A program made the position numbers and the translations under genes. A DNA stretch of 61,127 nucleotides from Alphaproteobacteria bacterium. GTDB taxonomy: Bacteria; Pseudomonadota; Alphaproteobacteria; UBA2966. The stretch lies in NCBI GenBank assembly GCA_018650465.1, contig JABIFY010000126.1, positions 1 to 61,127 of the forward strand, given 5' to 3'. A model generated the notes under the pieces. That model was not told the DNA's origin. It was given only the letters and a program-made list of their open reading frames with translations, and searched no databases. How positions within the stretch are numbered: position 1 is the first letter of the stretch; each line of letters begins with the position of its first letter. Positions 1,693 to 58,111 of this stretch are shown piece after piece.

Positions 1693-2970
1693 TTATTCTG
1701 CCGCAGTCGAAAACGGATTTCTTGGATCTTGCGTCCAGTTCATATAGTCCTTGCCGTTATCTACCTTGCGCATGGTTATGCAGTTTTCCGGACAAACATG
1801 CATGCACAGATTACAGCCCACGCATTCATCGTCAATAACTGAATATTTGCGCTCACCATCAATGCGTTCAGCACTGATCGCCTGATGCGATGTATCTTCG
1901 CAAACAATATGACAAAGACCGCACTTGACGCATTTGGCCTGCTCGATCTCGGCAACAATTTCGTAGTTCATGTTCAGGTTCTGCCAGTCCGTGATATTTG
2001 GAACAGCCAATCCCTGAAAGTCAGAAATCTTTTCATAGCCTTTCTGGTCCATCCAGTCGGACAGACCATCAATCATGTCTTCGACAATCTTGAAGCCATA
2101 ATGCATGACAGCGGTACAAACCTGCGTCGTGCCTGCGCCCAGGGCAATAAATTCAGCCGCATCACGCCAGTTGGAAATACCGCCTATGGCTGACATGGGC
2201 AAACCGGCTGTACCGGCATTGCGGGCGATTTCTGCACACATATGCAGGGCCATGGGTTTAACAGCCGGACCGCAATAGCCGCCGTGGGACCCCTTGCCAT
2301 CCACGGTCGGTGTCGGGGCCATGAGATCGAGATCGATGGAGGTAATCGAGTTCACTGTATTGATCAGCGACACGCCATCACCACCGCCAGCTTTGGCGGC
2401 ACCAGCTGGACCCAGAATGCTTGTGACGTTGGGTGTCAACTTGACCAGCACCGGCATATTTGTATGGGTTTTGCACCAACGCGTGACCATTTCCACATAT
2501 TCCGGCACCTGACCGACGGCGGCACCCATGCCGCGTTCAGACATACCGTGTGGGCAGCCAAAGTTCAGCTCAATGCCATCGCATTCAGTATCTTCAACTT
2601 CTTTCAGAATTTTGATCCAGGCCTCTTCTTCACATGGCACCATCAAGGAAACAACCATGGCCCGGTCCGGCCAGTCTTTTTTGACCTTCTTGATTTCTCG
2701 CAGGTTAACTTCCAGCGGCCGGTCGGTAATCAGCTCGATGTTATTCAGACCGAAAATGCGCTGCTCACCAATATGAACGGCCCCGTAACGCGATGATACA
2801 TTGACCACAGGTGGTCCCGCTTCACCCAGGGTTTTCCAGACCACGCCACCCCAGCCTGCCTTGAAGGCGCGAACGACATTATATTCTTTGTCTGTGGGTG
2901 GTGCGGAAGCCAGCCAGAACGGATTGGGCGACTTGATGCCACCTACTTCTGTGGAAAGATCAGCCATCAC
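1693..2970 (-). CDS. preA: NAD-dependent dihydropyrimidine dehydrogenase subunit PreA
   Basis: The 425-residue protein is the FMN-binding catalytic subunit that reduces uracil and thymine to 5,6-dihydropyrimidines. The N-terminal two thirds is a dihydroorotate-dehydrogenase-like TIM barrel: SPNPFWLASAPPT near residue 15, GIELNFGCPHG with the pyrimidine-site region near 140, and GGISNWRDAAEFIALGA near 265. The C-terminus carries two 4Fe-4S ferredoxin motifs, CVKCGLCHIVC and CVGCNLCMHVCPE. Its start overlaps the preT stop by 4 bp (ATGA), which suggests translational coupling and 1:1 production of the PreT-PreA complex. A second Met at residue 2 is an equally possible start. Confidence 0.95.
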   Translation of the reverse strand: MMADLSTEVGGIKSPNPFWLASAPPTDKEYNVVRAFKAGWGGVVWKTLGEAGPPVVNVSSRYGAVHIGEQRIFGLNNIELITDRPLEVNLREIKKVKKDWPDRAMVVSLMVPCEEEAWIKILKEVEDTECDGIELNFGCPHGMSERGMGAAVGQVPEYVEMVTRWCKTHTNMPVLVKLTPNVTSILGPAGAAKAGGGDGVSLINTVNSITSIDLDLMAPTPTVDGKGSHGGYCGPAVKPMALHMCAEIARNAGTAGLPMSAIGGISNWRDAAEFIALGAGTTQVCTAVMHYGFKIVEDMIDGLSDWMDQKGYEKISDFQGLAVPNITDWQNLNMNYEIVAEIEQAKCVKCGLCHIVCEDTSHQAISAERIDGERKYSVIDDECVGCNLCMHVCPENCITMRKVDNGKDYMNWTQDPRNPFSTAAE

Positions 2971-7153: not shown

Positions 7154-8653
7154 CTATTTAAGAACCGGCATAGAGAATTCTGCACCCGAACGAATTCCTG
7201 TTGGCCAGCGTGACGTCACAGTTTTCAGTTTGGTGAAGAATTGTACGCCTTCTGGACCATGCATGTGCAAATCACCGAACAAGGACCGCTTCCAGCCACC
7301 AAAGCTGTGGAACGCCAGCGGTACCGGGATCGGCACGTTAATGCCGACCATGCCAATCTGGGCTTTGGAAGCAAATGTCCGGGCGCTGTCACCATCGCGG
7401 GTGAAAATTGCCGTGCCGTTGCCGTATTCGTGGTCGTTGACCATGTCGATGGCCGTCTCGAAACTATCGGTGCGGACGACGCTGAGGACCGGACCAAAAA
7501 TTTCTTCTTTGTAGATGCTCATGTCGGTGGTGACATTGTCGAAGATCGTGGCACCGACAAAGTGACCGCCTTCATAGCCTTGAGGTGCGGTAAAGGTACG
7601 GCCATCGACCAGCAGGTCGGCGCCTTCTTTTTCACCGGCGTCAATGTAGCCTTTGACCTTGGCCGCATGTTCTGCCGTGATCACAGGACCCATTTCCGAC
7701 GTTTCATCCATGCCAGGACCGGTCTTCAGAGCCTGCGTCAATGGCACCATGCGTTCCATCAGTTTGTCACCGGCATCCCCCACAGCCACAGCAACCGAAA
7801 TCGCCATGCAGCGCTCGCCTGCCGAACCATATGCTGCCCCCATCAGGGCATCAGCGGCCATATCCATATCGGCATCGGGCATGATGACCATGTGGTTCTT
7901 GGCGCCACCCAGGGCTTGAACGCGTTTGCCATTGGCAGTACCGCGAGAGTAGATATATTCGGCAATGCCCGTAGAGCCAACAAAACTGATGGCAGCAATG
8001 TCGGGGTTATCCAGGATCGTGTCGACGGCAACCTTGTCACCATGTACGACATTCAGTACGCCTTCAGGCAAACCGGCTTCGATCAGCAATTCAGCCATGC
8101 GGTTGGCGAGAGACGGGTCTTTTTCGGACGGCTTCAGAATGAAGGTATTGCCACAGGCCACAGCAATGGGGAACATCCACATAGGCACCATGGCCGGGAA
8201 GTTGAACGGCGTAATACCGGCCACAACACCCAGCGGCTGGCGCATGGAATGCATATCAATGCCAGCGGCGACGTCATCATTAAAGGCACCTTTCAAAAGG
8301 TGCGGAATGCCACATGCAAATTCAACAATTTCAATACCGCGAGAGATTGAGCCCTTGGCATCAGAATGAACCTTGCCATGCTCAGCCACAACGATGTCTG
8401 CCAGTTCGTCAATGTTGGCTTCCATCAAGGCTTTGAAATTGAACATAACCCGGGCGCGGCGCAACGGTGAAGTTGCGGCCCAGGCCGGGAACGCTGCCTT
8501 GGCATTGGCAATGGCTGCATTCATTTCATCCGAAGATGCCAGGGGCACCTGGGTAATGATTTCACCAGTGGCTGAGTTGTCCACGTCGCTGAAACGATCA
8601 GAGGTTCCGGCAACATCCTTGCCGCCAATAAAGTGAGTAAGTGTCTTCGTCAT
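7154..8653 (-). CDS. mmsA: CoA-acylating methylmalonate-semialdehyde dehydrogenase
   Basis: The 499-residue ALDH-superfamily enzyme oxidises malonate semialdehyde or methylmalonate semialdehyde with NAD+ and CoA to acetyl-CoA or propionyl-CoA, releasing CO2. Family marks are [20 protein letters not shown] (about residues 138-157), [13 protein letters not shown], catalytic Cys282 in AGERCMAIS, and [12 protein letters not shown]. The arrangement matches MmsA/IolA, not general ALDHs. It is the last gene of a minus-strand cluster (aminotransferase, ald, mmsA) and starts 32 bp after ald. In this setting it completes the breakdown of beta-alanine (from uracil) and beta-aminoisobutyrate (from thymine). 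Valine or inositol catabolism are alternative uses. Confidence 0.92.
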
Positions 8654-8685: not shown

Positions 8686-9804
8686 TTATGCTGCGAGCAC
8701 ATCCTTGGCCGGGACATAGTTCAATTTCTGGTCGATGGCGACCGCCTCATAGGTGAGTTGGCCTTTGTGCACGTTCAATCCAGCGCAAAGATGGGGGTCC
8801 GATAACAATGCGTCGCGGTACCCTTTGTTAGCCAACGCCAGCGTAAAGGGCAAGGTGGCATTGTTTAAGGCAAAGGTTGATGTCCGTGCAACCCCGCCCG
8901 GCATATTTGCCACACAATAGTGAACCACATCGTCAACAACATAAGTTGGTTCAGAATGGGTGGTGGCATGGCTGGTTTCAAAGCAACCGCCCTGATCGAT
9001 GGCAACGTCGACAATAACTGCGCCGCGCTTCATCTTCTTGATCATATCTCTTGTCACCAGATGAGGTGCCGCCGCACCCGGCACCAACACGGCACCAACC
9101 ACCAGATCGGCGTCGATGACCTGTTCTTCAATGTTTCCTGCGGTGGAATAAATCGTGTTAATCCGGCCCCGGAACATTTCGTCCAGTTCAGCCAGACGCT
9201 TGAGTGAGCGGTCTATGATGACCACGTCACATTCCAGACCCACAGCCATGCGGGCAGCATTGGTACCAACGACACCGCCACCAATAACCACAACCTTGCC
9301 CGACGGCACGCCAGGTACACCACCCAGCAATACACCGCGCCCACCTGGTTCCATTTCCAGGCAATGGGCACCGGCCTGAATGGACATGCGACCTGCCACT
9401 TCGCTCATGGGAGCCAGCAAGGGCAGCGTGCCCCGCGGGTCTGTCACGGTTTCGTAGGCAATAGCGATGCAACCACTGTCGATCAAACCTTTGGTTTGTG
9501 CGGGATCGGGTGCCAGGTGCAGATAGGTGAACAGGATCTGGTCCTTGCGCAGCATGGCGATTTCGGCTGGCTGCGGCTCCTTCACCTTGACGATCATGTC
9601 AGCCGTGGCAAAAACTTCGGCAGCCGTATCAACAATGGTCGCACCGGCAGCCCGGTAATCATCATCTTCCAGTCCGATAGCATGACCTGCATTCGCCTGA
9701 ACGGCGACCTGGTGGCCGTGGTGGATGACTTCACGAACCGAGGCCGGGGTCATTCCAACCCGATATTCGTGGACTTTTACTTCTTTGGGGACACCGAGGT
9801 GCAT
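8686..9804 (-). CDS. ald: Alanine dehydrogenase
   Basis: The 372-residue enzyme catalyses NAD+-dependent deamination of L-alanine to pyruvate and ammonium. I take the start at [17 protein letters not shown], the usual family N-terminus. An upstream in-frame Met at 9882 would add 26 residues encoded by a large hairpin and is unlikely. Seen are [12 protein letters not shown] (substrate Lys region, about residue 75), FTYLHLA (catalytic His, about 96), [20 protein letters not shown] (NAD-binding, about 170) and the C-terminal [15 protein letters not shown]. Placed between a pyruvate-dependent aminotransferase and mmsA, it can regenerate pyruvate from the alanine the aminotransferase makes. Confidence 0.94.
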
Positions 9805-9834
9805 GGTCTTGGCTTTCTTATTGAGATTTGGTTT

Positions 9835-9914
9835 GCCATGCCGCCCACTCCCCTTCCCGACCATCCACCAGCATAATTGCATGGGCGGTCGGGAAGGGGA
9901 GTGGGCGGCATGGC
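9835..9914. repeat. 28-bp perfect inverted repeat between aminotransferase gene and ald
   Basis: Positions 9835-9862 and 9887-9914 are exact reverse complements over 28 bp, rich in G and C, separated by a 24-nt loop. The element fills the 128-bp gap between the aminotransferase stop and the ald start. Neither side has a T-run after the stem, so it is not a standard Rho-independent terminator. In the minus-strand transcript it would form a very stable hairpin 31 nt before ald. It could be an mRNA processing or stability element, an attenuator, or a small mobile palindromic repeat. Confidence 0.9.
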
Positions 9915-9932
9915 GGTCAAACCTTAAAACAT

Positions 9933-11255
9933 CTAATCCAGGTTTTTGATGACATCAGCAAGGATGCCGAACATCTCGTCGATTTGCGGTTTTGTGATCA
10001 TCAGGGGCGGTGACAGCGCAATGATGTCGCCGGTAGTGCGGATCAACAGACCTTTTTCGTAGCATGCCAGGAAGGCAGCAAAAGCGCGTTTGGTCGGTTC
10101 TCCCTCAAAGCCTTGTAGCTCGATACCGGCAATCAGGCCAGTATTGCGCAGGTCGATGACATGCGGCAGACCCTTGAGGCTGTGAACGGCATCTTCCCAA
10201 TAATCTGCAATATCAGCGCACTGTTCAAAAAGCTTTTCATCCCGATAGACGTCCAACGTTGCAATCGCAGCAGCGCAGGCCAGTGGATGGGCCGAATAGG
10301 TATAACCATGGAACAGTTCGATGGCATTTTCCGGACCAGTCATAAAGGTGTCGTAGATGTCGTTGGACGTCATCACGGCGCCCATGGGTACAGTACCGCT
10401 GGTAATGCCTTTGGCCAGGGTCATCATATCCGGTGTCACACCATAATGATCGGCACCGAAGGCCGCGCCTGTGCGGCCAAAGCCTGTAATAACTTCATCA
10501 AAGATCAACAGAATGCCATGCTTGGTGCAGATATCGCGCAGGCGTTTCAGATATCCCTTTGGCGGCATCAACACGCCCGTTGACCCGGCAATGGGTTCAA
10601 CAATAACGGCGGCAATGGTTGAGGCATCATGCAAGGTAACAATACGCTCCAACTCGTCTGCCAGTTCTTCGCCATGTTCTGGCTGGCCGCGCGTGTAGGC
10701 ATTTTTGGCCAGGTCATGGGTGTGCGGCATATGGTCGACACCGTTTAGCAGCGAGCCAAAGAACTTGCGATTGGTGACAATGCCGCCAACGGAAATACCG
10801 CCAAAACCAACACCGTGATAACCGCGCTCGCGGCCGATCAAACGGGTGCGAGCGCCTTCGCCGCGGGTGCGGTGATAAGCCAGGGCAATCTTCAGGGCTG
10901 TATCCACTGCTTCGGAACCCGAGTTGGTAAAAAAAGCGTGGTCCATGCCATCGGGTGTCATCTCAGCCAGGCGTGACGCCAGCTCAAACGCCTTGGGGTG
11001 GCCCATCTGAAAAGCCGGGGCATAGTCCATTTCGCCAGCCTGCTTCTGGATGGCTTCAACCACAGGGGCACGATTGTGACCGGCATTGCAGCACCACAGG
11101 CCCGCTGTGCCGTCCATCACCTGGCGGCCTTCAGCCGTGGTGTAATGCATGTCTTTGGCACCCACAAACATGCGCGGATTAGCCTTGAATTGACGGTTTG
11201 CCGTGAATGGCATCCAGAATGGCTCAAGGTTATTTGGATTGGTGGGCGTGCTCAT
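9933..11255 (-). CDS. Omega-amino acid (beta-alanine):pyruvate aminotransferase
   Basis: The 440-residue class III PLP aminotransferase transfers the amino group of beta-alanine (or beta-aminoisobutyrate) to pyruvate, giving malonate semialdehyde and L-alanine. Visible are LEPFWMPFTANRQFKANPRM (typical omega-APT N-terminus), FTNSGSEAVDTALKIALAYH (PLP phosphate site, about residue 108), LLIFDEVITGFGRTG (PLP ring Asp, about 250) and Schiff-base Lys282 in TLAKGITSG. Length and motifs match beta-alanine:pyruvate aminotransferases (BauA/OapT type). It is the first gene of the minus-strand cluster with ald and mmsA and diverges from an XRE-cupin regulator 170 bp away. Confidence 0.9.
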   Translation of the reverse strand: MSTPTNPNNLEPFWMPFTANRQFKANPRMFVGAKDMHYTTAEGRQVMDGTAGLWCCNAGHNRAPVVEAIQKQAGEMDYAPAFQMGHPKAFELASRLAEMTPDGMDHAFFTNSGSEAVDTALKIALAYHRTRGEGARTRLIGRERGYHGVGFGGISVGGIVTNRKFFGSLLNGVDHMPHTHDLAKNAYTRGQPEHGEELADELERIVTLHDASTIAAVIVEPIAGSTGVLMPPKGYLKRLRDICTKHGILLIFDEVITGFGRTGAAFGADHYGVTPDMMTLAKGITSGTVPMGAVMTSNDIYDTFMTGPENAIELFHGYTYSAHPLACAAAIATLDVYRDEKLFEQCADIADYWEDAVHSLKGLPHVIDLRNTGLIAGIELQGFEGEPTKRAFAAFLACYEKGLLIRTTGDIIALSPPLMITKPQIDEMFGILADVIKNLD

Positions 11256-11424: not shown

Positions 11425-12006
11425 ATGTCTGAAATCGACCAAGGTGCTGAACAAGCTTACGGATTTGATCTGGGTGCCCGCCTGCGCGGTGTGCGAGATA
11501 GCGCAGGTTTATCTCAACGTGAACTGGCCCGCCGGGCCGGCGTGACCAACGGTATGATTTCCCTGATTGAACAAAACCGGACCAGTCCCTCAGTTGGTTC
11601 ACTGAAAAAAGTCCTGGATGGGATTCCGCTTTCCCTCGCGGATTTTTTCGCCGGAGAAACGAATACGGGGCCAAAGATATTTTTTGAGGCGGACGACCTG
11701 CTGGAAATCGCTGGTGGCGATATCTCCTATCGCCAGGTCGGCGGCGATCTTTCGGAACAGGCTCTGCAAATGATCCATGAGCGATATGCGCCCGGTGCCG
11801 ATACCGGTCGTGCCATGCTGTCCCATGAAGCAGAAGAATGCGGCGTTGTCATTGAAGGCCAACTGGAGCTAACGGTGGGCAATCAACGAAAGGTACTGGG
11901 TCCGGGTGATGCCTATTATTTTGACAGCCGCCTGGCCCACCGCTTTCGCAATGTCTCCGACAAAGACAGCATCGTCGTCAGCGCCTGCACCCCACCTTCC
12001 TTTTGA
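11425..12006 (+). CDS. XRE-family regulator with C-terminal cupin sensor
   Basis: The 193-residue regulator has an N-terminal HTH_3 domain (LRGVRDSAGLSQRELARRAG then TNGMISLIEQNRTSPSVGSL, about residues 20-65). Its cupin domain (about 115-190) has YAPGADTGRAMLSHEAEECG and a second motif ending FDSRLAHRFRNVSD. This PuuR-like architecture commonly regulates amine or amino acid catabolic genes, with the cupin sensing a small molecule. It diverges from the beta-alanine aminotransferase gene, so it is the likely regulator of the aminotransferase-ald-mmsA cluster, separate from RutR. The effector is unknown; beta-alanine is a reasonable guess. Confidence 0.88.
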   Translation: MSEIDQGAEQAYGFDLGARLRGVRDSAGLSQRELARRAGVTNGMISLIEQNRTSPSVGSLKKVLDGIPLSLADFFAGETNTGPKIFFEADDLLEIAGGDISYRQVGGDLSEQALQMIHERYAPGADTGRAMLSHEAEECGVVIEGQLELTVGNQRKVLGPGDAYYFDSRLAHRFRNVSDKDSIVVSACTPPSF

Positions 12007-51694: not shown

Positions 51695-51795
51695 CACCGC
51701 CCTCGACCGCCGCGCTTTTGACGACCAGGGTGATGCCCGCTTTGGGTCAATAACAGACTTGTTTGCACTGCCATTGACCCCGTTGGAACCGGATT

Positions 51796-51844
51796 AAATC
51801 AACTTCTCGACAGCGGCTTGTATTTGACGCTTCAAAAGTGAAGT
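51796..51844 (+). repeat. Dispersed 49-bp repeat, copy 1
   Basis: The core runs from AAATCAACTTCTCGA to TCAAAAGTGAAGT and matches the copies at 52466, 54356 and 58063 with a few substitutions. Upstream lies a related GGGTCA...ACAGACTT segment (51745-51760), so the family unit is about 100 bp. This is the most divergent copy together with copy 2. Confidence 0.88.
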
Positions 51845-51918
51845 TCGAAATTTTGACCGCTAATGATCGACAAGAGACAGCTATCGATTTGTCGGGTACA
51901 GTATGGGGAAAATGCCAA

Positions 51919-52395
51919 ATGAGTTTGGTTTCGGGTATCAAGCTCGTAAACTCTTCGGGGTATGACCAACACCTTTTTGGAGCTTCCGGTCGGATGAACA
52001 TAGACGAATATTTTAGCTGGGAATGGAAAGAGTTAGCCAACAAGTCTTGTCTGTATGTTGCACCCCAAGGAACAGCCGACAACAAACGCTGGATCGCTTT
52101 TTTCGAACAGGTTGCAGATTCTTTTCCAGACGGTGATGCGTTCGTCATCGTCGATGTCCGGGGAATCGAGGAGAAAATCGATCTGGAGGGGTTCAAGGGA
52201 ATAATCGATATTTTGAAGAGACACGGTGCTGAAAGTGCGCATTTCGCTGTCATCACCACCGATCAATTTCACAAACTCACAGCCGATATTTTTCAACGAT
52301 TGGCTACCGCGAGCGGATTTAATCTATCTATCGTCGTCTTCCTCAGTGAAGATTCCGCAACAGATTGGTTAATTGAAGAGATCGAAAAACACTAG
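51919..52395 (+). CDS. Hypothetical protein
   Basis: The 158-residue protein starts at ATG 51919 with GGGGAAAA upstream (MSLVSGIKLVNSSG). The frame extends upstream to a GTG at 51838 inside the 49-bp repeat, which would add 27 residues. The middle part AFVIVDVRGIEEKIDLEGFK, then GIIDILKRHGAESAHFAVIT, looks like an alternating beta-alpha fold of the STAS or SpoIIAA sort, but the match is weak. I do not recognise a family. Confidence 0.6.
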   Translation: MSLVSGIKLVNSSGYDQHLFGASGRMNIDEYFSWEWKELANKSCLYVAPQGTADNKRWIAFFEQVADSFPDGDAFVIVDVRGIEEKIDLEGFKGIIDILKRHGAESAHFAVITTDQFHKLTADIFQRLATASGFNLSIVVFLSEDSATDWLIEEIEKH

Positions 52396-52465
52396 GACGG
52401 GCATGTCGGTAACGGGTCAGTTGCAGACCTCTTGGTGCTACTACTGACCCACTCTATACCTCATT

Positions 52466-52514
52466 AAATCAAGTTCTCGACAAAGGCTTGTTTTTGGCGC
52501 GTCAAAAGTGAGTT
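52466..52514 (+). repeat. Dispersed 49-bp repeat, copy 2
   Basis: Same unit and orientation as the copies at 51796, 54356 and 58063, here AAATCAAGTTCTCGA to TCAAAAGTGAGTT. A GGGTCAGTTGCAGAC segment lies 50-65 bp upstream, as in the other copies. It fills the 286-bp gap after the hypothetical gene. Confidence 0.88.
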
Positions 52515-52681
52515 TGGCCAAAATGTCAGCTATTTGGCAACAACGGACATAGGGCCATGCCAGACAGTCGGGATGGATGTGGATATTTCCAGCGATAGAA
52601 TTTAAACCTCAGATATCGGATACAAGCACATCTGGATGCATGGCCTATGCGATTGAAGCGGCTCCCGACTCTAACATGATC

Positions 52682-53365
52682 TCAATAAATGAAGGGCACA
52701 AATCTCGCCGTTCTGGCTTTGTAATCTTCGAAATCTGCGCCATAGCGGTCGGCAAGATAGGCATCCAGCGCCGGGATATGAAAAAATATGAAACTTGCCG
52801 TCACAAAAATCGGGATTGGCCAGGCAAACACTGATGCCGTCAGTATCGCCCATCCGGTGAACAGTAGGGTATCGCCAAAGTAGTTGATGTGCATGGAATA
52901 AGTGAAGAGACCTTCAGTATAACATCGGCCATTAGCGGAAGGGTTCATCTTCCACATCCAGCGTTGCAGTTCTGATCCTGTGTTGAGAGTAGAGCCGAAC
53001 AAAACCAGACCACATCCAAGCCAGTCCAATAACCGAGGTGGCGTCGGCGTGCCGGAAACCTCCCCGGAGCCAAGCAGCAGAAATCCAACTTCGAACAAAG
53101 CCATAAAGGCAGTCAGGCCCAAAACCTCGGACAGGGCGACCCTGCGTTGCATCAGGACAAACAGGGTCACCAGATGCCGTAGCCAGTAAAGAACAGCACA
53201 CAGTGCCAGAATACCGGCTCTCGGTTGATCCGGCCAATCCAGGGTGCCAAAGGCCAGCCAGATACACAGGGCCGCGATGGCACCATGTAGAATGGCAAAG
53301 GTCAGTTTGGAGCTTTGAGAGCGATCATGTTCGCGGTTGACACCGCCGGAATTTGACATGGCCAT
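52682..53365 (-). CDS. DUF1295/isoprenylcysteine methyltransferase-like membrane protein
   Basis: The 227-residue membrane protein has about six hydrophobic segments. Its C-terminal part reads GRCYTEGLFTYSMHINYFGD (about residues 146-165) and ALDAYLADRYGADFEDYKAR, then TARFVPFIY, the ending typical of DUF1295 proteins. This superfamily includes steroid 5-alpha reductase-like and isoprenylcysteine carboxyl methyltransferase-like enzymes. The actual reaction is unknown. It is convergent with the gene upstream at 51919. Confidence 0.8.
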   Translation of the reverse strand: MAMSNSGGVNREHDRSQSSKLTFAILHGAIAALCIWLAFGTLDWPDQPRAGILALCAVLYWLRHLVTLFVLMQRRVALSEVLGLTAFMALFEVGFLLLGSGEVSGTPTPPRLLDWLGCGLVLFGSTLNTGSELQRWMWKMNPSANGRCYTEGLFTYSMHINYFGDTLLFTGWAILTASVFAWPIPIFVTASFIFFHIPALDAYLADRYGADFEDYKARTARFVPFIY

Positions 53366-53467
53366 GCTTCAGAATGGTTTGAAAAACTTCAGGATAAAAG
53401 TCGTGATACCCATCAACAGCGCAGTCACGCCGATGAAACTCTGCTCATGATCATGAGCAGGGATCGG

Positions 53468-54226
53468 CTAGCCAATTTTCTGAGCGACATACATACCGTA
53501 GCTATAACAGGATTTGTACTTTTTATAGAGTGCGATTTCGTTTTTCTCAGCATCGATGATTGAGGTTGCCATCTCGTTATCTTCATGTCTTGCGAGAAAG
53601 TCGGGAAAGCCTTCCTGCAAAGGTCGATAATAATTCTCCAACCAACAACTCTCGGGCAGTACAAAATAGCCAATCGGCGCGTATCCGTTTTCTTCAAGAA
53701 CCTTGATTTTTGTGGATGCTGTTGCAATTTCCGGATACTCGGCTTCCCAATATTCCTGTAACTCGGGGGGACGGCTGTTCGTTATCCATGTAATCTCTGA
53801 AACCGCCAGAATTCCATCAGGTTTCAGAAAACGCCTCCACTCTTTCAGCCCCTTTTCAAAGCCCATGTTGTAAATGGCACCCTCTGACCAAAAAACATCA
53901 TATTCCTCTTCAGCAAATGGCAACTGCTCCATAGAACATACAAGTGTTTCTATCTTTTCAGATAAGCCTTCCGCTTCGGCGTTGTCTTTAAGCGCCTCGA
54001 TGAATTCCGGCAAAAAATCCACGGCGGTAATTTTTGCATTCAATGAGTTTGCAAGTTGCAATGTCGAAGCCCCGGTTCCACAACCGATATCGGCGATATT
54101 TAGCGGCTTTGGCTTATGGAGGTTTGCCAACGTCATCGCTCCACTCGTCTCCGCCTGCCCACCGGGACCTTGACGATTCTGACGTTTATGCAGGTCAACC
54201 AACAGAGCCAGGTATTCGTCGTCCAT
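53468..54226 (-). CDS. Class I SAM-dependent methyltransferase
   Basis: The 252-residue enzyme (Methyltransf_25/31 type) has ALLVDLHKRQNRQGPGGQAE near the start, motif I as NIADIGCGTGASTLQLANSL (about residues 38-57), ITAVDFLPEFIEALKDNAEA and DVFWSEGAIYNMGFEKGLKE, with GILAVSEITWITNSRPPELQ after. Similar proteins are SmtA-like with unknown substrates. No strong ribosome binding site precedes the ATG. It lies 102 bp upstream of the DUF1295 gene on the same strand. Confidence 0.83.
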   Translation of the reverse strand: MDDEYLALLVDLHKRQNRQGPGGQAETSGAMTLANLHKPKPLNIADIGCGTGASTLQLANSLNAKITAVDFLPEFIEALKDNAEAEGLSEKIETLVCSMEQLPFAEEEYDVFWSEGAIYNMGFEKGLKEWRRFLKPDGILAVSEITWITNSRPPELQEYWEAEYPEIATASTKIKVLEENGYAPIGYFVLPESCWLENYYRPLQEGFPDFLARHEDNEMATSIIDAEKNEIALYKKYKSCYSYGMYVAQKIG

Positions 54227-54749
54227 TAAAAAAAACCTTCAATATTCAAGCCGTTGGAAGGCTTAGCATATTTGAAATACCTTGAGGTGGAAAGTTCTGT
54301 TTCAGGTCAGAAGCAGACTTGTTGACTCAAGCATCGTCCCCGCCGAAAACTCAACAAATCAACTTCTCGATAATGGCTTGTATTTGGCGCGTCAAAAGTG
54401 AGGTTTGTAATGTTGTCTGGTAATAGCCACAAGCAGACATTTCAAACCTATTTTGTCATTTGTGATCCAGCAAAACTTTTTGAGTCGATAGCAATTCCAT
54501 GTGTCTTGTCAGTCTTCGAGAGATGCAATTTGGTACACAGTTTTTCCGAAAGCTCATTGCCGCGGCGAATGCCGGTCGCAAAACTCTCATAAAGACCGTG
54601 TTTTCCTCGTCGAGAAGCTACCTGCAATTTGTGCAACTGGTTCGACATTCTCAGCGATACGGTTCCTCAGATATCCACGGTAGCGTTGGGAAAACGCAGG
54701 ATCAGTTGGTTTGGTGACAAAATTTTATCGACGGAATGTGAGCACTTCT
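54227..54749. other. 523-bp gap holding copy 3 of the 49-bp repeat
   Basis: Besides the repeat at 54356-54404 I see no gene that I recognise: short frames on both strands at 54398-54862 lack ribosome binding sites and family features and overlap each other. The region may include a decayed gene fragment, but nothing identifies it. Confidence 0.5.
54356..54404 (+). repeat. Dispersed 49-bp repeat, copy 3
   Basis: AAATCAACTTCTCGA to TCAAAAGTGAGGT, identical to copy 4 (58063-58111) across the whole 49 bp as far as I can read. An upstream GGTCAGAAGCAGACTTGTTGA segment (split here for reading: GGTCAG, then AAGCAGACTT) is also shared in part with the other copies. Confidence 0.9.
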
Positions 54750-55634
54750 CTACCCAAGATTATTGCTTCGCCAAGAGTATTCGGGTTCGTAGCCTAGAAC
54801 ACGTCGCGCTTTTTCAATTGACAGAAGGGTTTTGTGACCATCTGAACCTTCAAGCATCGTGACACCGGGGAAAACTTCCGCCATCAGTTCTTCATTTGAT
54901 CTGGTCATGACGCTGTCCGCGTTGGCGATGATGAAATATTCGGCACCGATATTTTCGACTATCAGGCTTTTGCGGACGGACTGGGCGAAGTCTCTGGCGT
55001 CAATGTAGCCCCACATATTCCACTTTCGAATGCTGGCATCACCCTGCCAGTCCGGAAATCGTAAATAGTCGTCTGAAGTCATAACGTTTGATAGACGCAG
55101 ACCGATGAAAGACATATCGGGGTTCCAGCGGTGCATCTGTCGAGCCATTTCTTCGCTCAGGACTTTTGACAAAGAATATGCGCTCTCCGGGCGTAGGGGG
55201 TGATCCTCGTCAACAGGGACATAGTCGGGCGGGGCCTCAGCCGAAAATGGCAAGCCAAGTGTCGTTTCACTGGAAGCCCAGACGACGCGTTTGATGCCGA
55301 CCAGCGCCGCTGCCTCAAACACATTGTAGGTGCTCATGATATTGTTTCGGAAAGTAAGGCAATCGGGATAAAGGTCTGGTGCGCGAATGGCGGCGAGATG
55401 AACAACGGCATCAGGTTGTTTAAACTTGCGAAAAGGATGATCATTTCCGCCTGTGGCCCGAAAGGCTTCGACGGTTTGACCGAGGTCTTCGAGGTCGACA
55501 TTCAGGAAAGCACAACATGGGTCGACGGGTGGCCTGCTATCAATGTTCAGGACGAGATAACCGTGTTCGACGAGGCTTTGGCAAACGATTGTACCAGCTT
55601 TGCCGCTGCCGCCGGTGACAACAATATTCTTCAT
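54750..55634 (-). CDS. NAD(P)-dependent epimerase/dehydratase
   Basis: The 294-residue extended SDR has an N-terminal IVVTGGSGKAGTIVCQSLVE nucleotide-binding fold, VVHLAAIRAPDLYPD, and the catalytic YSLSK (Tyr and Lys, about residues 152-156) after VWASSETTLGLPFS. It resembles the UDP-glucose 4-epimerase/uronate dehydrogenase-like group. The substrate is unknown; the neighbours do not form a sugar pathway. The start at 55634 is the family-typical N-terminus. Confidence 0.85.
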   Translation of the reverse strand: MKNIVVTGGSGKAGTIVCQSLVEHGYLVLNIDSRPPVDPCCAFLNVDLEDLGQTVEAFRATGGNDHPFRKFKQPDAVVHLAAIRAPDLYPDCLTFRNNIMSTYNVFEAAALVGIKRVVWASSETTLGLPFSAEAPPDYVPVDEDHPLRPESAYSLSKVLSEEMARQMHRWNPDMSFIGLRLSNVMTSDDYLRFPDWQGDASIRKWNMWGYIDARDFAQSVRKSLIVENIGAEYFIIANADSVMTRSNEELMAEVFPGVTMLEGSDGHKTLLSIEKARRVLGYEPEYSWRSNNLG

Positions 55635-56051
55635 GTTCCAACTTCTCCTTGACTATGTCCTGGAATCAACCCTGACCGTGTTCAGAGACAAAATCACAGT
55701 CCCGGGTTTGTAAAATCTTTTCCAGTGCCTCGCATCTGTTATGCTTGTCGTGATTGAGCGGTACAATAAATGCCGACAGCCAGCAGGTCCATGGCCACGC
55801 CGCACGAATAAGAATACCATGGCGATATATATCTGTTTGGCTGTTCACCACGGAGGAAATCCGGCGGCGGTGAGAACGGAACCTAATAGCCAATAAGAGA
55901 TATTCGTTGCGTTGACGGGCTAGAACAGTCGCACGCAGCATGTGTATCGGGGGCATCGGGCGAATGCAGAAAATAATTCTTCAGAAAACTGCATGAATTT
56001 GTATAATCGTGAATAATTTGACTATCAACATGGAACTGCCCGTAAGGAAAT
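55635..56051. other. 417-bp gap upstream of the PAS kinase gene
   Basis: No recognisable gene. The last 80 bp are AT-rich and should hold the kinase promoter. I see no terminator or repeat that I can support. Confidence 0.5.
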
Positions 56052-57974
56052 TTGAAATCAAAAATATTACAATCTACCTCGAAGGTTTATCCAAGCGAGT
56101 TCTCCCTCGTAAAAGCGTCGAAAATGTTTCCTGATATTTATGACACTTTGCCCGATGCAATAGTCTGGACGCAGTCAGGTGTGATCCAGTATGCCAATTC
56201 AAAATGTGTCGAACTGCTGCGTGCCGACGGTAGGGAAGGCCTGATTGGCAAGAGCATGCTGGATTTGATCGATCCAGAGTTTCGAAATATTGCCGCGCGC
56301 CGCATCGAAGACACAGCCAAAGGTCATCCTCCAGGTTTCAAGGACATGCGGCTTATGCGGTTCGACGATACGAAGGTATGGGTTGAGACGACAGGAAGCC
56401 TGATTGAAGTTGAAGGTGAAGCATTTGTCCAGGGTGTGTTTCGCGACATCTCCGACAAAAAGAAGCTCGAAGGCGAATTGATTGAGAGTGAAATCAGAAC
56501 TCGTCTGATCGCCGATAATCTCCCCGTATCGATTGTATATGCAGATAACCAGCGTCGATACCGCTATGTGAACAAGGTGTACCTGGCATCCTATCAATCC
56601 AAAGAAGATGAGATCATCGGGCAGGATATTTTGACTGTAATGGGGGAATCTGCTCATACCCTGGTTTCGGGGCAGCTGGATGCAGCCTATGGCGGAGAGC
56701 CGCAGACGTTTGAGGCGGAAGTCCCATACAAGGTTTCTGGAAAATCCTGGGTACTTGTCAATTATGTGCCCCACTTCGACGACGCCGGTAGCGTGGTTGG
56801 TATATATGGCTTGGTCACTGATATCACTGAGCAAAAGTTTCGTGAACAGGCGTTGAAGGCTTCTGAAGCGCGACTGACGGAAATTTTTGATATAGCGCCA
56901 GAAGCCGTGATCACCATTGACGAAGAAATGTGCATACAGCTTTTCAACAAGGGGGCAGAGCGCATATTTGGTTACGACGCAGACGAAGTCATCGGACAGA
57001 GAATAGAGTTTCTGATGCCGGAACGCTTTCGCTTGGGACACCTCAAACATATCGAGGGCTTTGACCAATCGAAGAATGTCTATCGGCTGATGGATGGCCG
57101 CGACGACATCGCCGGCCTTCGCAAGGATGGGACCGAATTCCCTGCTTCTGCATCTGTATCCAAACTGGAAACAAGCAGCGGGAAGATTTACACCGTCATG
57201 CTACAGGATGTTACCGAGCGTAGAAACGCTGAAGGCGAACGCCTCCGAGCTCTGGTCATCGCCGAGAAAGCTAATCAGGCGAAATCAGAATTCCTCGCCA
57301 ATATGAGTCACGAATTGCGCACACCACTGAATTCCATTCTCGGGTTTTCAGAAATTATCGCCAATCAAAGTTTCGGTGCCGTCGGAAATGATAGATATCT
57401 GGAGTATGCAAAGGACATTCATGGCTCAGGCGCTCATTTGCTGGAACTCATAAATGATGTTCTCGATATCTCGAAGATCGAAGCCGGACAAATGTTCTTG
57501 TCCAGTCAGGAAGTCGATCTGATTCGAATGATTGAGTCTTGTTTGAGAATGATTAAGGAGCAGGCGTTTCGGAAGTCCATTGAATTGAACACCTGTCTGG
57601 ATGATTCTTCACTAATAATGATCGGAGATGAGAGGGTTCTCAGACAGGTTGTTTTAAACATCCTGACCAACTCAGTGAAGTTCACCCCGGTAGGTGGAAC
57701 GATTGAGATAACATTTGCCAGTGATGCTGAAGATTGTGCTGTATTGCAGATATCTGACACTGGTATCGGGATAGCTGCATCAGATATTCCCAAAGTGATG
57801 GAACCCTTTGAACAAGTTACATCAGTCGATACACGGGATCATCAGGGAACTGGACTCGGTCTGCCACTAAGCAAAAAGTTGACAGAACTTCATGGCGGGA
57901 CGTTTGAACTTGAGAGCGAATTAGGAGTTGGGACGGTTATCCGCCTGACATTTCCTGCAAAGACCAAAATTTAG
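56052..57974 (+). CDS. PAS-domain histidine kinase
   Basis: The 640-residue soluble kinase has three PAS domains: about 25-135 (YDTLPDAIVWTQSGVIQYAN), about 150-270 (ADNLPVSIVYADNQRRYRYV) and about 278-395 (IFDIAPEAVITIDEEMCIQL, with a GFDQSKNVYRLMDGR-type linker). Then HisKA with His420 in NMSHELRTPLNSILGF and HATPase_c with ILTNSVKFTP, DTGIGIAAS and GTGLGLPLSKKLTEL. It has no receiver and no membrane segment. The TTG start at 56052 has TAAGGA 4-9 bp upstream. Signal and partner are unknown; the kinase core resembles that of the rutR-linked kinase. Confidence 0.9.
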   Translation: MKSKILQSTSKVYPSEFSLVKASKMFPDIYDTLPDAIVWTQSGVIQYANSKCVELLRADGREGLIGKSMLDLIDPEFRNIAARRIEDTAKGHPPGFKDMRLMRFDDTKVWVETTGSLIEVEGEAFVQGVFRDISDKKKLEGELIESEIRTRLIADNLPVSIVYADNQRRYRYVNKVYLASYQSKEDEIIGQDILTVMGESAHTLVSGQLDAAYGGEPQTFEAEVPYKVSGKSWVLVNYVPHFDDAGSVVGIYGLVTDITEQKFREQALKASEARLTEIFDIAPEAVITIDEEMCIQLFNKGAERIFGYDADEVIGQRIEFLMPERFRLGHLKHIEGFDQSKNVYRLMDGRDDIAGLRKDGTEFPASASVSKLETSSGKIYTVMLQDVTERRNAEGERLRALVIAEKANQAKSEFLANMSHELRTPLNSILGFSEIIANQSFGAVGNDRYLEYAKDIHGSGAHLLELINDVLDISKIEAGQMFLSSQEVDLIRMIESCLRMIKEQAFRKSIELNTCLDDSSLIMIGDERVLRQVVLNILTNSVKFTPVGGTIEITFASDAEDCAVLQISDTGIGIAASDIPKVMEPFEQVTSVDTRDHQGTGLGLPLSKKLTELHGGTFELESELGVGTVIRLTFPAKTKI

Positions 57975-58062
57975 CTTCAGTAAACTAGCTTCAAGGCTAA
58001 AGTCCGTTCTGGGTCATGAGCAGACTTTATAACTCCGCCATTGCTCCCTCAAAACTTCAACA

Positions 58063-58111
58063 AATCAACTTCTCGATAATGGCTTGTATTTGGCGCGTCA
58101 AAAGTGAGGTG
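58063..58111 (+). repeat. Dispersed 49-bp repeat, copy 4
   Basis: Identical to copy 3 over 49 bp. Upstream AAAGTC (58000-58005) and GACTTT (58023-58028) frame GGGTCATGAGCA as an inverted repeat. The copy lies in the gap after the kinase gene and before the cyclase stop. Confidence 0.9.

Follow-up and report, generated by a model that had tools for sequence, protein, structure and literature searches.

Background

Several described groups of bacterial repeats resemble the element reported here. REPINs and GTAG-REPs, which are associated with RAYT proteins (PMC3116915, PMC2817692), are dispersed, non-coding intergenic palindromes in which two short REPs carrying a GTAG tag form a hairpin of 70-110 nt, and compensatory changes between the arms have been reported for REPINs (PMC3116915). 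The CGTC-REPs are mostly alphaproteobacterial palindromes of 20-40 bp with loops of 4-5 nt, a CGTC tag and a CCA tail, and have no dedicated transposase (PMC3733652). CIRs, the CcrM-associated intergenic repeats of Caulobacter and Brucella, are, as summarized in PMC2229807 from Chen and Shapiro (2003), intergenic units of ~110 bp that are conserved among Alphaproteobacteria and comprise two stem-loops, a linker and a conserved GANTC. MITE-like elements such as NEMIS/Correia, RUP, YPAL and RPE are intergenic units of 100-200 bp that lack an open reading frame, form a long hairpin and show insertion polymorphism, and the hairpins of NEMIS are RNase III substrates (PMC2229807, PMC10969869). Template switching between inverted repeats provides a further point of reference, as it is reported to homogenise the arms of such repeats and to invert the spacer between them (PMC8604942; PMC8794818).

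To place a long palindrome found in an alphaproteobacterial catabolic operon among these systems, we compared its sequence, copies and sites with those of related genomes. The window, by which we mean the whole stretch of DNA analysed (61,127 nucleotides), is the entire contig C2 of a 4.8-Mb genome in 163 contigs (G000), and the features discussed are collected in Table 1.

Table 1. Coordinates of the palindrome, its neighbouring genes and related sites
Feature	Location	Strand	Basis
Omega-aminotransferase AptA, upstream gene	9933..11255	-	NF052567, 771 bits, cut-off 500
Alanine dehydrogenase (ald), downstream gene	8686..9804	-	TIGR00518, 517 bits, cut-off 392
Methylmalonate-semialdehyde dehydrogenase (mmsA), after ald	7154..8653	-	TIGR01722, 723 bits
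Arm 1 of the perfect palindrome (3' arm in transcript)	9835..9862	-	sequence
Arm 2 of the perfect palindrome (5' arm in transcript)	9887..9914	-	sequence
Asymmetric 24-nt spacer, minus strand GCCCATGCAATTATGCTGGTGGAT; holds the family's conserved loop (ATGCRATTATNCTGGTGG)	9863..9886	-	
A+T-rich outer flank ATTGAGATTTGGTTT, resembles the TIR-like TTNAGNTTTGRTT flank of other copies	9820..9834	-	
A+T-rich outer flank GGTCAAACCTTAAAA (minus strand AAGGTTTGACC), inverted match to the opposite flank	9915..9929	-	
Probable inserted element, ~115 bp, bases without a G001 counterpart	9818..9932	-	alignment to G001:C2 (L273)
Own-genome copies	C2 (window), C53:27448, C59:47910, C58:~22010, C119:~14340, C151:~2600, C69:~27053, C10:~22423, C112:~52180		
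Own-genome serC-serA copy, in halves	first bases of contigs C147 and C151		
Sites common to both species	serC-serA; C58/C83; C119/C104; C112/C30+C142		
RAYT-like Y1 gene locus, two copies of TAATTGGTGCCAGGCACTAATTAA...TTAATCAGTGCCTGGCACCAATTA	L037 (G000:C64:3405-6725), 1357-1412 and 2119-2174		

Results

The initial annotation, made from the letters of the window, described exact 28-bp arms around a 24-nt loop, a stem longer than that of a terminator, the lack of a T-run and a position that parts the aminotransferase from ald. All of these points hold: the arms are exact, the palindrome lies between the aptA stop codon and the ald ATG, the stem far exceeds terminator lengths, no T-run adjoins it on either strand, and no terminator-like site in the window uses it. 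Extended inward, the arms reach 33 nt at 94% identity, the spacer pairs further, and the palindrome of ~80 bp sits inside an element of ~110-115 bp. Approximately 5e-11 exact 28-bp pairs with a loop of up to 60 nt would be expected by chance in 61 kb, and the arm motif was not matched in shuffled sequences. The RNA is predicted to form a single long helix (MFE -82.4 kcal/mol, z = -9.9), and the single-stranded DNA to fold at -48.3 kcal/mol (z = -10.9). An Rfam search of the palindrome on both strands returned sub-threshold matches only, mostly to microRNA precursors, as any perfect hairpin will. Elsewhere in the window, a separate repeat spans 51745-58110 in three to four diverged copies of 59-120 nt (at 51745, 52415, 54305 and 58052) whose 59-nt cores are 80-97% alike.

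On established biochemistry, aptA, ald and mmsA make up a set for the catabolism of beta-alanine, with Ald recycling the alanine that AptA produces. A PuuR-like regulator (11425-12006; NF007408, under its cut-off) is divergent from this operon. The ald frame is open for 26 codons further upstream (9805-9882), crossing half of the palindrome and reaching an ATG within the spacer, and a gene caller may therefore place the ald start within the repeat.

The arm motif occurs once in the window and at ~10 places in the genome. The search of the genome for the arm sequence that had been proposed with the initial annotation thus reveals a genomic family, represented at ~10 sites in the BLAST, pattern and covariance-model searches, with a canonical form of approximately GCCNNGCCGCCCRCKCCCCCTCCCGACCRCCCATGCRATTATNCTGGTGGGYGGTCGGGAGGGGGMGYGGGCGGCNNGGC and A+T-rich flanks outside. 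All own-genus copies appear to lie between co-directional genes with tight gaps, several of the flanking genes being judged from aligned reading frames without annotation. Gene context was read from these own-genus copies, and counts of copies 'inside ORF' in G+C-rich genomes were set aside as the work of a crude ORF caller. Such placement between co-directional genes fits insertions that are tolerated in operons. Contigs end inside palindromes of the family in both this genome and its sister (L071/L072, the starts of G000:C151 and C147; L081/L084, the start of G001:C30 and the end of C142), which indicates that short-read assemblies break there and that copy numbers are underestimates. When 310 core arms were searched with a strict pattern for a partner within 90 bp, 14 lacked one. 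An autonomous element with split arms was considered for these and rejected, as most of the 14 have a slightly altered second arm and the rest are truncations at contig ends; no gene was found to be framed by core arms standing as clear halves without a partner.

Comparison with a sister species of the same genus (G001), queried with 350-bp flanks, located the same gene pair without the palindrome, which answers the earlier proposal that this gap be compared in relatives. The site on G001:C2 measures 711 bp against 703 bp of flanks, and the distance from the aptA stop codon to the ald ATG is 16 nt there versus 128 nt here. In addition to the window site, five own-genome copies correspond to sister sites that lack a palindrome and three copies of the sister correspond to such sites here, giving nine sites occupied in one species only and four common to both. 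The cleanest junctions are those of the window site and C151, several other unoccupied sites having diverged across the gap so that their exact junctions are uncertain. At C151 the stop and start codons overlap as ATGA in the sister species, and in our genome the element parts the two codons with ATGA on both sides; this is a candidate target-site duplication (C151:2578-2685), none being readable at other sites. At the window site ~115 bp were probably inserted, with limits that shift by a few bases with the alignment within a span from the ald leader to the aminotransferase stop. In this comparison of two genomes, the nine one-sided sites are more simply explained by insertion; the converse, that the palindrome at the window site is older and was lost in the sister species, would be a possible but less simple reading. 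The presence and absence of copies would thus point to transposition, and the suggestion in the initial annotation that this might be a mobile palindromic unit gains support from the genomic copies and the palindrome-free sister site.

Arm sequences vary between copies yet remain Watson-Crick paired. Among eight copies, 94% of cells are paired and 11 pairs show two-sided changes, a number reached in none of 500 shuffles and to be compared with one to four in slid registers. A larger set of 117 copies, all from named genomes, was compared at the 14 arm positions that the search pattern does not fix: these pair at 84% versus 29-36% in slid registers, and variable positions show three or four pair types. 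Relatives compared at the same site (L137/L222, L148/L179) carry double changes with the other arm bases unchanged. At C119/C104 the 74-bp palindrome is identical across species but inverted, within flanks that are 79% identical, and the spacer is inverted at C58/C83 as well and not at serC-serA or C112, amounting to two of the four shared sites. For spacer orientation we relied on own-genus pairs, since calls from distant pairs were ambiguous or involved different elements at nearby places. Arm homogenisation together with spacer inversion at the same locus in relatives is the footprint by which template switching is defined (PMC8604942), and both are present at these sites. Selection on RNA pairing should produce an excess of G.U over A.C mismatches in the mRNA sense, and there is no such excess (7 versus 8, with 98% Watson-Crick pairs overall, in a small sample with gene direction taken from a crude ORF caller). 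Maintenance of the arms at the DNA level rather than by RNA-level selection is therefore favoured, and the co-change of the arms probably arises from copying errors at the hairpin, that is, from template switching. Exactness had earlier been taken as a sign of recent origin or strong constraint. That reading is not supported: copies common to the two species, in flanks of ~80% identity, are equally exact and the co-changing arms point to homogenisation of DNA, so that exact arms are a poor guide to age or to any regulatory constraint.

Copies of the family turn up in many orders of Alphaproteobacteria and hardly at all in the rest of the phylum. When 84,980 named species genomes were scanned with a pattern, at least 118 stretches were identified. 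The 80 matches listed include Sphingomonadales, Kordiimonadales, Minwuia, Kiloniellales and other rhodospirillalean groups, Hyphomicrobiales, Hyphomonadaceae and similar records, and among these matches every record that names a class or lower taxon is alphaproteobacterial. The copy in casp150-mb.302, recorded as 'Proteobacteria bacterium', has the same contig position and sequence as that in an alphaproteobacterial genome (G200). In a separate set, the exact core was present in 16 of 385 alphaproteobacterial genomes with up to 30 copies, and outside the class 3 of ~260 genomes gave one match each with unlike loops. The distribution is patchy, given that genus g2 of the same family as the source has no copies. 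Plasmid or phage carriage was considered and set aside: two plasmid records, both sphingomonad, and no phage records carry the family, which is chromosomal and almost never found on plasmids or phages.

Variants of the element were also observed. The ~17 copies of the genome G042 (L105-L119) belong to a variant CCGTCCCGCGCCCCCACCCGGCCACCC that is specific to this lineage and whose outer inverted flanks are longer (GAGACCGTTTGAGAATG...), and some copies in G003 (L085-L099, e.g. L094 and L095) have a longer, apparently part-duplicated spacer CAGGATACCACAGGGATTATCGA. In Qipengyuania sp. (L137:3732), a copy lies in a ~150 bp composite insertion with another small hairpin, directly after a gene end, and three related genomes are without it.

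Discussion

The palindrome is quite probably a dispersed chromosomal repeat that was inserted between aptA and ald and whose arms are kept by template switching. Most likely, a non-coding palindromic repeat entered the aptA-ald gap after the split from the sister species, the most economical mobiliser being a transposase acting in trans. A polymerase switching templates would then rewrite one arm from the other and sometimes flip the spacer, and replication itself would keep the arms exact.

A doubtful extension of this reading is that the near-fixed core CCCKCTCCCCCTCCCRACCACCC and the spacer motif are bound by a shared host or transposition protein, with template switching keeping the arms and the insertions tuning operons. 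The core of the C119 copy is alike at 49 of 50 bases, spacer included, to that of a genome of another family (G346), a conservation that could reflect selection on a bound sequence. If this extension were true, a protein common to many orders would recognise the palindrome as a cruciform or single-stranded hairpin, and insertions would uncouple overlapping or tightly spaced genes of operons.

It is unlikely that the palindrome is a cis-regulatory RNA hairpin of aptA-ald-mmsA, whether attenuator, processing site or 3' stabiliser, selected for enzyme balance. The great stability of the helix, its position between stop and start, an RNase III gene in the genome and the co-directional genes around copies in this and the sister genome would all suit such a role. 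However, the sister species keeps the gene pair with its 16-nt gap and no hairpin, the same element adjoins unrelated genes, G.U pairs are not in excess, the spacer inverts and a T-run is absent. The first two of these observations weaken the earlier proposal that attenuation, cleavage or balancing of the two enzymes is the reason for the existence of the element. 

Under the reading as an inserted repeat, an effect on aptA-ald expression is plausible. With the element, the transcript gains ~112 nt and a helix of ~29 bp. In Neisseria, hairpins carried by repeats have been put forward, and reported, as substrates of RNase III (PMC2229807), and as a side effect the aptA-ald helix would probably allow RNase III and exonucleases to split the two cistrons apart. 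Split cistrons and lost translational coupling between aptA and ald would be likely consequences, and the palindrome may possibly protect the aptA 3' end. Nothing in the data shows that an operon effect is selected.

Slightly less likely than a cis-regulatory hairpin is a REP or REPIN moved by a RAYT, a Y1 transposase. The intergenic, palindromic and dispersed copies, the hairpin of REPIN size, the known compensatory changes of REPINs (PMC3116915) and a RAYT-like gene in the genome bring this explanation to mind, and we searched for a mobilising enzyme among Y1 transposases (PF01797) in our own genome and in 190 genomes of the class, with 29 loci inspected. None was found. The sole Y1_Tnp gene of the genome, on C64, is flanked by a different palindrome that reads GTGCCAGGCAC...GTGCCTGGCAC and is unrelated to that of the window; none of the 29 other loci is flanked by the family, and one has a related palindrome ~0.75 kb off that does not flank the gene. 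The genome G042 has many copies and no Y1_Tnp match, and GTAG occurs in the outer 25 nt of 2 of 184 copies (GTGG in 39). A RAYT origin was accordingly rejected. A strong bidirectional terminator or transcription barrier, repeated by chance, is very improbable even with a long G+C-rich hairpin right after the stop codon in several copies, as the T-run is missing on both strands, the stem is much longer than that of terminators, the own-genome copies lie in likely operons, whose downstream gene a terminator would silence, and termination needs neither a conserved asymmetric spacer nor co-changing arms.

Reading the palindrome as an inserted repeat maintained by template switching has several implications. 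The family offers, at several natural sites, a record of how arms are homogenised and spacers inverted among related species, and it cautions that perfect arms or covariation need not mean RNA-level selection. It also explains assembly breaks in the present and sister genomes. The palindrome-free gene pair of the sister species is a ready control for the effect of an insertion on two coupled enzymes.

The comparison with known systems is as follows. The element resembles REPINs and GTAG-REPs in its dispersed, non-coding intergenic hairpins with compensatory arm changes, but consists of a single long, exact palindrome where those have two short REPs, and has neither the GTAG tag nor a RAYT flanked by the same palindromes. 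It shares with CGTC-REPs a mostly alphaproteobacterial range and the lack of a dedicated transposase; unlike them, it has stems with a median of ~30 bp and spacers mostly of 14-24 nt, and CGTC lies near an end in 17 of 184 copies. CIRs are similar in size, intergenic position and conservation among Alphaproteobacteria, and differ, by their published description, in architecture and in GANTC: the present element is a single palindrome, and GANTC is at background (54 in 141 copies versus 52.5 in shuffles). As in MITE-like elements, there are dispersed copies, unoccupied sites in relatives and a long hairpin without an ORF; unlike those elements, the arms are G+C-rich, there are no TA ends and no clear target-site duplication, and the search of Y1 transposases gave no related insertion sequence. 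The outer TTNAGNTTTGRTT flanks of own-genus copies are candidate terminal inverted repeats that are degenerate and lineage-specific. The G+C-rich stem without a T-run also differs from an intrinsic terminator. No literature match to six 15-mers of the arms and no description of this family across many alphaproteobacterial orders was found in the papers searched; the family is apparently undescribed, although older or subscription descriptions, especially for sphingomonads, may exist. Dispersed, hairpin-forming and polymorphic for insertion, the element behaves like a MITE or REPIN but satisfies the full definition of no family, and it is most fittingly regarded as a new family of palindromic repeats in bacteria.
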